Shown piece after piece: positions 649-3,514 of a stretch of 64,000 nt of DNA. Below the pieces are notes generated by a model. The model saw only the letters and a list, made by a program, of their open reading frames with translations, made no database searches and was not told where the DNA came from. A program made the translations under genes and the position numbers. Location of the stretch: positions 186,001 through 250,000 of the forward strand of contig AP019701.1 in the NCBI GenBank assembly GCA_006738865.1, in the 5' to 3' direction. Source of the DNA: Allostella sp. ATCC 35155. Lineage in GTDB: Bacteria; Pseudomonadota; Alphaproteobacteria; ATCC43930; Allostellaceae. The number at the start of each line of letters is the position of its first letter. Within the stretch, counting starts at the first letter, position 1.

Positions 649-2331
649 TCAGGCGTCGAGCGCCCGGTTGACCGCGCTGGTCACGGCCTGCAGCGACGCC
701 GCAACGATATCGGGACTGATCCCGACCCCCCAGATCACCTTGCCGTCGCCGCGCTTGGCCTCGATGTAGGTGACCGAGCGGGCGTCGGCTCCGTGGCCGA
801 TCGCGTGCTGATGATAGTCCTCGACGCGGATGTCGATTCCGCAGTTGCGCGCGAGCGCGTCGACATAGGCCGCGATCGGCCCGTTGCCGTGCCCCTCGAT
901 CGTGCGGGGCGCACCGTTCTCGGTGATGCGGGCTTCGATCACCCGCTGGTGCGGCTGCTTCGCATCGGGAACCGTCGAATGGTCGCGGAAGGCGATCGGG
1001 CTGTCGCGCCGGACATACTCGTCCTGGAAGGTGTCCCAGATGAGCTGCGGGGAGATCTCCTTGCTCGTCTCGTCGGCGATCCGCTGGATCACCCGGCTGA
1101 ACTCGACCTGCAGCAGCCGCGGCACGTCGAGGCCATAGTCGGTCTTCAGGATGTAGGCGATGCCGCCCTTTCCGGACTGGCTGTTGATGCGGATGATCGC
1201 CTCGTAGGAGCGGCCGAGGTCGGCGGGGTCGATCGGCAGGTAGGGAACCTCCCAGACCTTGCTGTTGGATGCCCCGAGCGCGTCGAAGCCCTTCTTGATC
1301 GCGTCCTGGTGCGACCCGGAGAAGGCGGTGAAGACCAGGTCTCCTCCGTAGGGATGGCGGGGATGAACCGGCAGCTGGTTGCAGTATTCCGTGGTCTGCC
1401 GGACCCGGTTGATGTCGGAGAAGTCGAGATCGGGATCGACGCCCTGGGTGTACATGTTGATCGCCAGGGTGACGACGTCGACATTGCCGGTGCGCTCCCC
1501 GTTGCCGAACAGGGTGCCCTCGATGCGCTCGGCGCCGGCCATGAAGCCCAGTTCCGCCGCGGCCACGCCGGTCCCGCGATCATTGTGCGGATGCAGCGAC
1601 AGGATGATGCTGTCGCGGTGCCGGAAATTGCGGTGGCACCATTCGATCTGGTCGGCATAGACGTTCGGCGTCGACATCTCGACCGTTGCCGGCAGGTTGA
1701 TGATCATCTTGTGGTCGGACGTCGGCTGGAATACGTCGCAGACGGCGCCGCAGATGTCGCGCGCGTACTCCAGCTCGGTACCGGTGAAGCTCTCGGGCGA
1801 ATACTCGAAGATCCAGCGCGTCTCCGGACGCTCGTCCGCGAGCTTCTTCACCAGTCGCGCACCGCGGACGGCGATCTCGGTGATGCCGGCCTCGTCCTGG
1901 CCGAACACGACGCGGCGCTGCAGCGTCGAGGTCGAATTGTAGAGGTGGACGATCGCCTGCCTCGCGCCCTTCAGCGATTCGAAGGTCCGCTCGATCAGCT
2001 CGGCGCGCGACTGGGTCAGCACCTGGATCGTGACGTCGTCCGGGATCATGCGCTCTTCGATGAGCTGGCGGACGAAGCTGAAGTCGGTGTCGGAGGCGGC
2101 GGGAAAGCCGACCTCGATCTCCTTGAAGCCGAGTTCGACCAGCAGCTTGAACATGCGGGTCTTGCGATCGGCATCCATCGGCTCGATCAGCGCCTGGTTG
2201 CCGTCCCGGAGGTCGACCGAGCACCAGATCGGCGGCTTGGTGATGACTGCCGAGGGCCAGCGGCGGTCGGGCAGGTCCACCGGCTTGAAGGGGACGTACT
2301 TCTGCGCGGCGTCGGTGGGAAAGCGGGGCAT
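649..2331 (-). CDS. leuA: 2-isopropylmalate synthase (type 2 LeuA)
   Basis: Catalyses condensation of acetyl-CoA with 2-oxoisovalerate, the first committed step of leucine synthesis. The protein is 560 residues. The HMGL-like TIM barrel is marked by [11 protein letters not shown] near residue 40 (the DRDG-type metal site), [10 protein letters not shown] with the metal-binding HxH (HPH), and [11 protein letters not shown]. The C-terminal third is the LeuA allosteric domain, where leucine feedback normally binds. The start at 2331 is preferred over 2343 because GGAG lies 6 nt upstream of it. The gene stands alone, facing away from the polysaccharide locus, behind a structured leader with a Leu-rich peptide, so attenuation by leucyl-tRNA supply is likely in addition to allostery. 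Confidence 0.95.
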
Positions 2332-2403
2332 GGGGCACTCCATCGGGCGCGGCCCTCGGTCGGGCGGCGCCGGGTTCGGGATCCGGGAGAGGAAGGGAGG
2401 CCG

Positions 2404-2468
2404 GCGTCGCTTTGCTCGACGCTCGCAGCAGCCCGGCCCGCGGACGATGGGCGCGTCGTGGCGCGCCC
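2404..2468 (-). promoter_or_regulatory. Two stem-loops in the leuA leader
   Basis: Read on the minus strand, the leader between the upstream small ORFs and leuA can form two simple hairpins. One is GGGCGCG/CGCGCCC at 2449-2468 with a 6-nt loop; the other is GCGTCG/CGACGC at 2404-2422 with a 7-nt loop. The second is followed on the minus strand by a pyrimidine-rich stretch (about 2389-2398), but not a true T-run. They are candidates for the downstream (terminator-side) half of an attenuator. Whether they compete with upstream helices was not computed. Confidence 0.35.
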
Positions 2469-2470
2469 GA

Positions 2471-2557
2471 TCAGGCCCGCGAGCCGCCGATAAGTCGCAG
2501 CGCGCGCCCCGCGCCGCGCCGCTGGAAGGTCTCGGAATGGAAGAAGTCGATGGTCAT
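2471..2557 (-). CDS. Possible second small ORF in leuA leader (28 aa)
   Basis: A 28-codon ATG ORF begins with [14 protein letters not shown] and ends just before the 2449-2468 hairpin. It lies between the Leu-rich leader peptide and leuA. A weak AGGA lies about 12 nt upstream. It is rich in Arg and Gly and has only two Leu codons, so it is not itself a leucine sensor. I do not recognise a family. It may be non-coding leader RNA that is open by chance, as expected at this base composition; listed because the whole leader may be a two-ORF arrangement. Confidence 0.25.
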
Positions 2558-2587
2558 CGCGTCCGGTCCTGCTGCTGTCACTTCCCC

Positions 2588-2630
2588 GGCCGAGCGCGGC
2601 TCGGCCCGTCCGTCCCGATCAGAGGGACGG
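2588..2630 (-). promoter_or_regulatory. Attenuator-like helices after the leuA leader peptide
   Basis: On the minus strand the last codons of the leader peptide (CCGTCCC, 2624-2630) pair with GGGACGG (2610-2616), with the leader stop codon in the 7-nt loop. The next stretch forms GGCCGAGC/GCTCGGCC (2588-2606) with a 3-nt loop. A ribosome stalled at the upstream Leu codons or released at the stop would change access to the first helix, which is the usual logic of amino-acid attenuators. No U-tract follows the second helix, so any termination would have to be Rho-dependent or act at translation. Confidence 0.5.
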
Positions 2631-2672
2631 GGCGGTAAGTCGAAGGAGCAGGGTGAAACCGGTGTGGACCAT
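2619..2672 (-). CDS. leuL: leuA leader peptide (17 aa, Leu-rich)
   Basis: The ORF reads MVHTGFTLLLRLTAPSL, then stops. Five of 17 residues are Leu, with three consecutive Leu codons (CTG CTC CTT), then Arg and another Leu (CTT). This is the classic form of a leucine-operon leader peptide sensing charged tRNA-Leu. It sits just 3' of a good promoter: only six bases separate the -10 box from the ATG, so transcription would start at or next to the A of the start codon and the peptide would be read from a leaderless mRNA. Leaderless leader peptides are known for trpL of Sinorhizobium. The stop lies inside the first attenuator helix. Confidence 0.75.
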   Translation of the reverse strand: MVHTGFTLLLRLTAPSL

Positions 2673-2678
2673 GTCCGG

Positions 2679-2708
2679 AATATATGCATTGCGGCAGCGG
2701 AGGGTCAA
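2679..2708 (-). promoter_or_regulatory. Sigma-70 promoter of leuL-leuA
   Basis: On the minus strand TTGACC (2703-2708) and TATATT (2679-2684) are separated by 18 bp. This is one of the best housekeeping-type promoters in the window. The -35 box overlaps the 3' end of the neighbouring FkbM gene (stop at 2705-2707). The predicted start lies at about 2672, the first base of the leader peptide. Confidence 0.65.
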
Positions 2709-3514
2709 CCCGGCCAGCATTGCAGACGGCCGATGACGTCCTCGCGGGCGGCGAACACGAAGTTGGCGACGTAGGTTCGACCGGGCAGGGGCCGCTCGCC
2801 GGCCGCATCGAGGCTGGCCCGGTCCTGGTGCAACCGGGCGTCGAAGCGCTCGATCGGCTGCAGCCGGCCGTCCAGCAGGAAGAAACCGCGATAGGCGAGC
2901 GGCTCCAGCAGCGCGCGGATGGCCGCGAGCGAGCCAGGGCGATGGCGGTCTTCGACCTCCACCAGCAGGTTCGGCCGGTCGCGTTCCAGCAGGCGGCGGG
3001 CGCCGGCCAGCACGCTTGCCTCGTGCCCCTCGACGTCGATCTTGATGAAGCCGGTACGCGGGAGATCCAGATCGTCGATCCGCCGCAGGGTGATCTCTTC
3101 GTGGCGGCCCGGATAGCTCGTGCCCGCCTCGGCTTCGACGGATGCCAGGGCGGAGCGGCCGGTCGGGATGAAGAGGCGCGACCGCCCCTCGTGGTCGCTC
3201 AGCGCGCCCTGCCATACCGTCGCCCGGCCCGCCTGGATGGCGGCACCGAGCCGGCGCCGGAGCACGTCGGCCAGCCGGGGGTTGGGCTCGGCCGCCAGCA
3301 GACCGCCGGCATGGCGGATCATGAGCACGGAGTAGGCGCCATGGTTGGCGCCGACATCGATCGCCAGTTCGGCCGGATGGCACAGCAGGGGCACCAGCCG
3401 CCGCTCCGGCTCGCCGCGATCGGGAAAGAGCCAGGCCTTGGCCTGCAGCAGCATCACGAAGAGGGCGGGGCAGCGTTCCTCGATGGCTGCGCGGAGGCTG
3501 GTTCTCAAGGACAT
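2705..3514 (-). CDS. FkbM family methyltransferase (1)
   Basis: SAM-dependent methyltransferase of 269 residues. The SAM-binding motif I is IDVGANHG at residues 52-59, and the family signature IKIDVEGHE is at 157-165. FkbM proteins O-methylate sugars or polyketides. Beside the flippase and carbamoyltransferase genes, the likely target is a sugar of the exported polysaccharide. The open frame continues upstream to 3670, but MSLRTSL at 3514 fits the family length and the preceding residues look random. It is probably the last gene of the 6655-2705 minus-strand unit. Confidence 0.85.
   Translation of the reverse strand: MSLRTSLRAAIEERCPALFVMLLQAKAWLFPDRGEPERRLVPLLCHPAELAIDVGANHGAYSVLMIRHAGGLLAAEPNPRLADVLRRRLGAAIQAGRATVWQGALSDHEGRSRLFIPTGRSALASVEAEAGTSYPGRHEEITLRRIDDLDLPRTGFIKIDVEGHEASVLAGARRLLERDRPNLLVEVEDRHRPGSLAAIRALLEPLAYRGFFLLDGRLQPIERFDARLHQDRASLDAAGERPLPGRTYVANFVFAAREDVIGRLQCWPG

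Follow-up and report, generated by a model that had tools for sequence, protein, structure and literature searches.

A candidate tandem leader-peptide attenuator with a recurrent CGA-CTT-A codon string upstream of leuA in Alphaproteobacteria

Background

The leu operon of enterobacteria is preceded by the leader leuL. In the attenuator at this position, rare leucine codons of a leader peptide upstream of the leu genes serve as control codons (PMC1183508; papers given by accession are cited throughout for the passages concerned). Sinorhizobium trpL (rnTrpL) has a leaderless leader open reading frame (ORF) at the 5' end of an alphaproteobacterial biosynthetic mRNA; it comprises one ORF with Trp codons and a terminator, from which a trans-acting small RNA (sRNA) results (PMC7298713, PMC10117765). 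The Caulobacter ilvBN leader, in the same class, encodes a leader peptide for branched-chain amino acids, with Ile and Val codons, and has a rho-independent terminator (PMC4117421). The actinobacterial LEU element is a leucine-rich leader before leuA with no obvious terminator, and it contains a pseudoknot as well as pairing of the Leu codons with the Shine-Dalgarno (SD) sequence of leuA (PMC1262725). Here we analyze the leader of leuA, the gene for 2-isopropylmalate synthase, in a stretch of 64,000 nucleotides (the window) from Allostella sp. ATCC 35155 (NCBI GenBank assembly GCA_006738865.1, contig AP019701.1, positions 186,001 to 250,000 of the forward strand). The 5.34-Mb genome that carries the window is called Stella below.

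The Stella leuA leader contains two tandem ORFs, and the ten-base string CTNCGACTTA (Leu-CGA-CTT-A) occurs in frame in both. On the strength of sequence comparisons, we consider it probable (about 0.72) that these strings mark two leucine-sensing stall sites that control leuA by ribosome-mediated attenuation. A short leader ORF with control codons for the end product lies upstream of the biosynthetic gene, which is the arrangement of a ribosome-mediated attenuator in the broad sense. A search of an open-access library and of passages from it turned up no account of two leader peptides in tandem before an alphaproteobacterial leuA gene; a survey of proteobacterial attenuators by Vitreschak et al. 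2004 (cited in PMC10117765 and PMC1262725), which lay outside that search, may cover alphaproteobacterial leuA leaders.

Two leader ORFs upstream of leuA

Coordinates are window positions, and the leader, both leader ORFs and leuA are all on the minus strand. The sequence contains the following features.

2679..2708, minus strand: promoter of the leuA leader, with -35 box TTGACC (2708-2703), an 18-nucleotide spacer and -10 box TATATT (2684-2679)
2619..2672, minus strand: leader ORF1, MVHTGFTLLLRLTAPSL, with the start geometry of a leaderless mRNA; stop codon at 2621-2619
2636..2645, minus strand: putative stall motif 1, CTTCGACTTA (Leu CTT, Arg CGA, Leu CTT, A), with the putative sensing codon CTT at 2639-2637
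2471..2557, minus strand: leader ORF2, which lies between ORF1 and leuA; an in-frame GTG is also present at 2581
2491..2500, minus strand: putative stall motif 2, CTGCGACTTA, with the putative sensing codon CTT at 2494-2492
649..2343, minus strand: leuA (2-isopropylmalate synthase, by NCBIfam models), the presumed regulated gene

Six bases separate the -10 box of the leader promoter from ATG 2672 of ORF1, and ORF1 contains the consecutive leucine codons CTG CTC CTT. Both points had been made in an earlier note on this DNA, and both are borne out. The promoter matches the consensus at 10 of 12 positions, and a promoter scan revealed no other promoter-like site in 2000-3200 (number of sites in shuffles, mean 0.0, standard deviation 0.2). 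The leuA start is 329 nucleotides from the ORF1 ATG and 275 from the ORF1 stop codon (the earlier note gave about 290 nucleotides of leader), and an alternative in-frame ATG of leuA is present at 2331. The leuA product scores above the NCBIfam cut-offs for PRK03739 (905 bits) and leuA_yeast (823.5 bits). Upstream of leuA, a gene for an FkbM-family methyltransferase (3670-2705, minus strand) ends with a TGA stop codon (2707-2705) that lies inside the TTGACC box of the leader promoter.

Leader ORF1 was sought in relatives by a rule that is blind to codons: TTGAC located 34-41 nucleotides upstream of the start codon (ATG or GTG) of an ORF of 8-25 residues, at most 420 nucleotides from leuA. Such an ORF is found before 99 of 139 nonredundant leuA genes, compared with 2.4 in shuffled sequences. 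Across the 99 loci the distance from TTGAC to the start is 34-40 nucleotides, the start codon is ATG in 98, and an SD-like motif precedes ORF1 in two. In 46 of the 99 loci (15.4 expected), a TANNNT element is located about where the -10 box should be. These data support the prediction of a leader peptide before leuA that is conserved, has the start geometry of a leaderless mRNA and contains leucine codons. Inspection by eye shows no conservation in the N-terminal half of the peptides.

The conserved part of ORF1 is the codon string CTN-CGA-CTT-A. The earlier note had proposed a leader peptide with a run of three leucine codons; leucine codons are indeed conserved across leuA leaders, in this string and not as a three-Leu run. 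The leucine codon compared (the anchor) was defined as the last Leu that follows an Arg or, failing that, a Leu, Gly or Ala, which means that its position is guided by the peptide and its codon choice is not. It is CTT in 94 ORF1s, CTG in four and CTC in one. The count of CTT is slightly low, because L129 is scored on its last Arg-Leu pair, CGA-CTG, although CTT-CGA-CTT-A is also present. The preceding codon is Arg in 88 of the 99 ORF1s, and all 88 of these are CGA; the base that follows the anchor is A in 85. As background, CTT makes up 4.8% of Leu codons and CGA 6.9% of Arg codons in the leuA genes of 43 loci, and in Stella leuA the values are 0 of 35 and 1 of 43.

A further CGACTT lies between ORF1 and leuA in 61 of the 99 loci, compared with 4.1 expected, and in 55 of the 61 it is inside a small ORF whose stop codon follows within 14 codons. 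The stop is exactly 7 codons past CTT in 35 of these 55 ORF2s, and the base after CTT is A in 52. CGACTT is identical in 31 of 31 aligned ORF2s, a set chosen for having CTT. The single leader peptide envisaged earlier corresponds to ORF1, and the second, ORF2 (2557-2471), had been missed.

The exact string CTNCGACTTA has two sites in the Stella genome, both in the leuA leader (11 for a backwards control), and the leaderless pattern TTGAC-ATG-CGACTTA matches this genome once, at the same leader. A regulon of the motif elsewhere in the genome is rejected for the exact string and the leaderless pattern, the forms that were searched. Class-wide, CTNCGACTTA followed 115-145 nucleotides on by CGACTTA occurs in 11 of 386 genomes, from 7 genera, and all 11 sites are before leuA. 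The leaderless pattern is found in 35 of 114 genomes, 17 of which have it at leuA by coordinates. The complementarity of CGACTT to the universal decoding-site sequence of 16S rRNA was judged a coincidence, given that flanking bases mismatch.

Several Rhizobiales leuA genes (L091-L111) have one leader ORF ending in LLLLGLIGDRRVR or similar, and in L102 the codon is CTT followed by A. This single leader is likely a relative of ORF2, and perhaps an ancestral pair of ORF1 and ORF2 existed, of which Reyranella kept ORF1 and Rhizobiales ORF2. L074, L075 and L089 have a single leader of leaderless geometry, M....ILLLGL(T/I)GARRA, which resembles the promoter geometry of ORF1 mixed with the tail of ORF2.

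Hairpins downstream of the codon string

Each putative stall motif is followed by a predicted hairpin, and another hairpin is located between the ORFs.

2610..2630, minus strand: hairpin A, with arms CCGTCCC and GGGACGG and the ORF1 stop codon in its loop; it starts 9 nucleotides past the first base of CTT (+9)
2588..2606, minus strand: second inter-ORF hairpin, GGCCGAGC-CGC-GCTCGGCC, predicted by folding; several relatives have one in a similar place by eye
2434..2486, minus strand: hairpin B, in which CGGCTCGCGGGC (2486-2475) pairs with GTCCGCGGGCCG (2445-2434), with an inner hairpin at 2468-2449; it starts 8 nucleotides after CTT

A small hairpin, GCGTCG-AGCAAAG-CGACGC (2422-2404, minus strand), lies beyond hairpin B and is followed by a pyrimidine-rich stretch.

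The 5' arm of hairpin A is at +8 or +9 from CTT in 44 of the 99 loci and at +7 to +10 in 54. The automated finder has a loop limit of 10 nucleotides, because of which it missed the larger hairpins of Reyranella type that are seen by eye (L048); for the window it favors a longer pairing that starts at +8. Where the stop codon follows two codons after CTT, hairpin A is at +9 in L076, L079, L134 and L161, at +4 in L141 and L145, at +7 in L143, at +11 in L146 and at +17 in L142. That the +9 start is kept in the first four despite the early stop suggests that hairpin A is tied to CTT rather than to the stop codon.

A stem that comprises 7 or more pairs and begins at +7 to +10 is present in 50 of 51 chosen loci (shuffles, 18.3; maximum, 25), and 43 have a stem score of at least 18 (shuffles, 2.0; maximum, 6); the stem rate is biased upward, because these loci were picked after the hairpin starts had been seen. 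Stem positions of hairpin A show several pair types across the chosen loci. A covariation analysis of related leuA leaders had been proposed earlier. On an ungapped alignment, the covariation score of hairpin A is 0.278, which none of 500 shuffles reached (shuffled value, 0.183), and it beats all slid versions; the number of pairs changed on both sides, 9, shows no excess (222 of 500 shuffles as high). Owing to differences in loop length, the share of cells that pair in this alignment is only 62.5%.

The start of hairpin B lies at +7 to +9 in 21 of 31 loci; three more loci lack CTT. RNAalifold, applied to an alignment of 11 sequences (A1), recovered both hairpins A and B with a small covariation term (-0.21), and its single-structure output adds a weak long-range helix of 4 pairs (columns 19-22 with 324-327). 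The folding energy of the whole leader (2331-2678) does not stand out (z = -1.65; matched by 6 of 100 shuffles) and is uninformative. Rfam models gave no match to the leader (2300-2750) up to an E value of 10 and, at gathering scores, matched nothing in the whole window other than a tRNA.

The region between the last hairpin and leuA

An intrinsic terminator scan of 2000-3200 gave 0 sites (shuffles, 0.3), in agreement with the earlier observation that a U-tract is missing. By eye, no T-run follows hairpin A or B in L130 and L132 either, whose leader regions are 45-46% GC. In the absence of a U-tract, the first guess for the output step is Rho-dependent termination before leuA, for which the base bias of one further feature is suitable and not conclusive.

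2344..2433, minus strand: C-rich stretch between hairpin B and leuA, a candidate Rho-loading region

From the last hairpin to leuA, C is more frequent than G in 29 of the 33 loci with two ORFs (Wilcoxon, 2e-6). In 21 loci of Reyranella type, the frequencies of C and G are 0.40 and 0.17, and YC dimers number 3.0 per 10 nucleotides, compared with 1.9 upstream.

The sequences compared

The set of 139 leuA upstream sequences, which includes the window, was obtained from 153 by removal of near-duplicates and of sequences shorter than 200 nucleotides. Among 162 genomes of the class, drawn evenly, 49 have a leuA match at E <= 1e-150. The best 80 of 587 leuA candidates include many records from Reyranella, Inquilinus, Sneathiella and Rhizobiales as well as metagenome bins, and among them Stella vacuolata has the closest named leuA, at 89% identity. 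The leuA genes of L079 (Mycobacterium sp. KBS0706), L083 and L085 (Dormibacterota bins) and L087 (Lysobacteraceae bin) are close to alphaproteobacterial genes, and L079 and L087 carry the leader as well; these four records are probably mislabelled or misbinned. L031 (G002) is listed as the genus of the window, its leuA is just 59% identical, and it is perhaps also misbinned.

Discussion

In the mechanism that we propose, transcription would start at or beside the A of ATG 2672, and the mRNA would begin with ORF1 and be read as leaderless. The ribosome would then meet Leu-CGA-CTT-A in each of the tandem ORFs, where the supply of charged tRNA-Leu would limit the decoding of CTT to an unusual degree. 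The tRNA for CTT would be tRNA-Leu(GAG), and an inosine anticodon would decode CGA. While CTT occupies the A site, the P site would hold CGA, and a hairpin that starts at CTT+8 or +9 would be 11-12 nucleotides downstream of the first P-site base. When leucine is plentiful, both ORFs would be completed, ribosomes would leave at the stop codons, and most transcripts would end before leuA, perhaps by Rho-dependent termination in the C-rich stretch as the off-switch. When leucine is short, ribosomes would wait at CTT, and transcription would reach leuA. Translation of the ORFs, stalling, the response to leucine, the sign of this response and the role of Rho are what we infer from the arrangement of the leader.

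Several published observations lead us to read each ORF as a leucine-sensing stall module. Stem-loops 11-12 nucleotides from the P-site codon inhibit tRNA binding to the A site (Bao et al., PMC7282821), and an assay built on the Salmonella his leader treats CGA-CGA as a slow pair (PMC11805395). In the Salmonella leu leader, CUG in place of CUA lowered sensitivity (Carter 1986, cited in PMC1183508), and selective charging theory accounts for the choice of control codons (PMC1183508). A more specific proposal is tentative, and the odds are somewhat against it: the sensor might be a built-in ribosome roadblock, not alternative folding, in which an invariant CTN-CGA-CTT-A string and a hairpin at the mRNA entry, present twice in tandem and first in leaderless form, tie the decoding of a single leucine codon steeply to one tRNA-Leu isoacceptor. 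This module might be ancestral to the leuA leaders of much of Alphaproteobacteria.

A number of observations weigh against attenuation by two tandem stall sites. Under the strict TTGAC rule, 40 of the 139 loci lack ORF1, and L005 is found by a looser box alone. Hairpin A starts outside +7 to +10, or is not found, in 45 of the 99 loci, including one locus with none. The further CGACTT is outside any small ORF of the kind described in 6 of 61 loci, and a second motif is present in 0 of 21 loci of Reyranella type. Backwards controls outnumber both class-wide patterns, by 23 to 11 for the tandem motif and by 53 to 46 (summed) for the leaderless pattern, and bare pattern counts are therefore set aside as evidence in favor of location at leuA. 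An SD-like motif precedes ORF2 in just 4 of 54 cases, so its translation, if it occurs, may depend on reinitiation or on initiation without an SD sequence, the latter being common in Caulobacter (PMC4117421). The hairpins noted earlier are present, whereas their alternative folding is not demonstrated: no pair of antiterminator and terminator emerged from RNAalifold, which gives one structure, and no systematic search for competing helices was made. The base bias before leuA is modest in two-ORF loci (C 0.39 and G 0.27, compared with 0.34 and 0.33 upstream), and the C-rich stretch partly adjoins the C-rich 3' arm of hairpin B. In the literature, pausing is said to need a specific length and structure rather than high stability (PMC8861025), so not every hairpin will cause it; the rare-codon explanation has been called an oversimplification (PMC1183508); and a Streptomyces leuA leader with changed Leu codons is reported not to behave as a classical attenuator (PMC1262725). 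Leucine sensing also does not fully explain the invariance of CGA-CTT-A.

Some of these points bear on other explanations, beginning with a classical attenuator of the leu or trp type, in which the position of the ribosome would select an antiterminator or an intrinsic terminator in each module. Control-codon leader peptides adjoin strong hairpins here, the stop codon is in or beside the loop of hairpin A in 43 of 50 chosen loci, and the Caulobacter ilvBN leader sets a precedent for a rho-independent terminator in this class (PMC4117421). Nevertheless, the terminator scan and the two leaders of 45-46% GC mentioned above gave no U-tract, no match is visible by eye between the 3' arm of hairpin A and the 5' arm of the hairpin that follows in the two leaders compared (the window and L057), and a ribosome with CTT in its A site would presumably cover little of a hairpin that starts at CTT+8 or +9. 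We consider such an attenuator rather unlikely. The missing terminator would suit translational control, in which stalling in ORF2 alters long-range pairing at the leuA ribosome-binding site; the actinobacterial LEU element has the same gene, a leader peptide and no terminator (PMC1262725), and in L135 ORF2 contains CUUAUC, the complement of a GAUAAG at the leuA SD. However, the minimum-energy fold of the Stella leader, which does not extend to pseudoknots, leaves the Leu codons unpaired with the leuA SD, and the motif is invariant in 11 aligned sequences while the leuA ribosome-binding region varies, which makes this explanation unlikely as well. Pairing of CUUA with the leuA SD fits a few relatives by eye and was rejected as a general feature.

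The invariance of CGACTTA, which exceeds what coding for amino acids needs and extends to the following A (85 of 99 ORF1s and 52 of 55 ORF2s), could instead indicate a nucleotide sequence bound by a protein or RNA. Against this, the motif is in frame as Arg-Leu in 88 of the 99 ORF1s, which were picked by geometry, and in a small ORF at 55 of the 61 further sites; the stop codon is 6 codons past the anchor in 52 of the 99 ORF1s and 7 codons past CTT in 35 of the 55 ORF2s; and 10 of the 11 ORF1s without Arg still have CTT. A function independent of codons is consequently quite unlikely. By analogy with Sinorhizobium rnTrpL and peTrpL, a terminated leader RNA (as the earlier note suggested) or the ORF1 peptide might act in trans, and a leaderless leader peptide with a trans function is described in the same class (PMC7298713, PMC10117765). 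The lack of conservation by eye in the N-terminal half of the peptide, and of any detected terminator that would yield a defined short RNA, leaves this improbable. Almost no credence is given to a programmed +1 frameshift at CUU-A that would fuse ORF1 to ORF2 or ORF2 to leuA. In Stella no stop codon interrupts the +1 frame between the ORF2 CTT and leuA, and this frame is also that of leuA, but among relatives the offset from CTT to leuA takes all three values, many have stop codons in the +1 frame, and the offset between ORF1 and ORF2 also varies. Because these frame offsets vary, frameshift fusion is excluded as a general mechanism.

If attenuation by tandem leucine-sensing stall sites is correct, two tandem leader peptides govern leucine synthesis in many Alphaproteobacteria. 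They would be a natural case, tuned by evolution, in which a codon pair, an A-site codon and an mRNA hairpin may jointly stall the ribosome. Ideas on the selective charging of tRNA, on slow CGA pairs and on pausing at stem-loops could be put to a direct test with this module, which also raises the question of how GC-rich bacteria attenuate without U-tract terminators.

Comparison with known systems

The predicted leader resembles several known systems in part. Like the enterobacterial leu attenuator, it places leucine control codons in a peptide before a leu gene; in contrast, it has two tandem ORFs, the first with leaderless geometry, its CTT stands behind CGA and is not CUA, no U-tract terminator was found, and the hairpin is close to the putative stall site. 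The putative leaderless start is shared with Sinorhizobium trpL, whose terminator and trans-acting sRNA are not seen here, and the predicted role of a branched-chain amino acid leader peptide is shared with Caulobacter ilvBN. The gene is that of the actinobacterial LEU element, which is described with a pseudoknot; the alphaproteobacterial leader has two ORFs, CGA-CTT-A and simple predicted hairpins. Finally, although no general frameshift product is supported here and pausing by hairpins A and B is putative, the frameshift stem-loops of dnaX and HIV have the same distance of 11-12 nucleotides from the P site, at which they hinder the binding of tRNA to the A site (PMC7282821).

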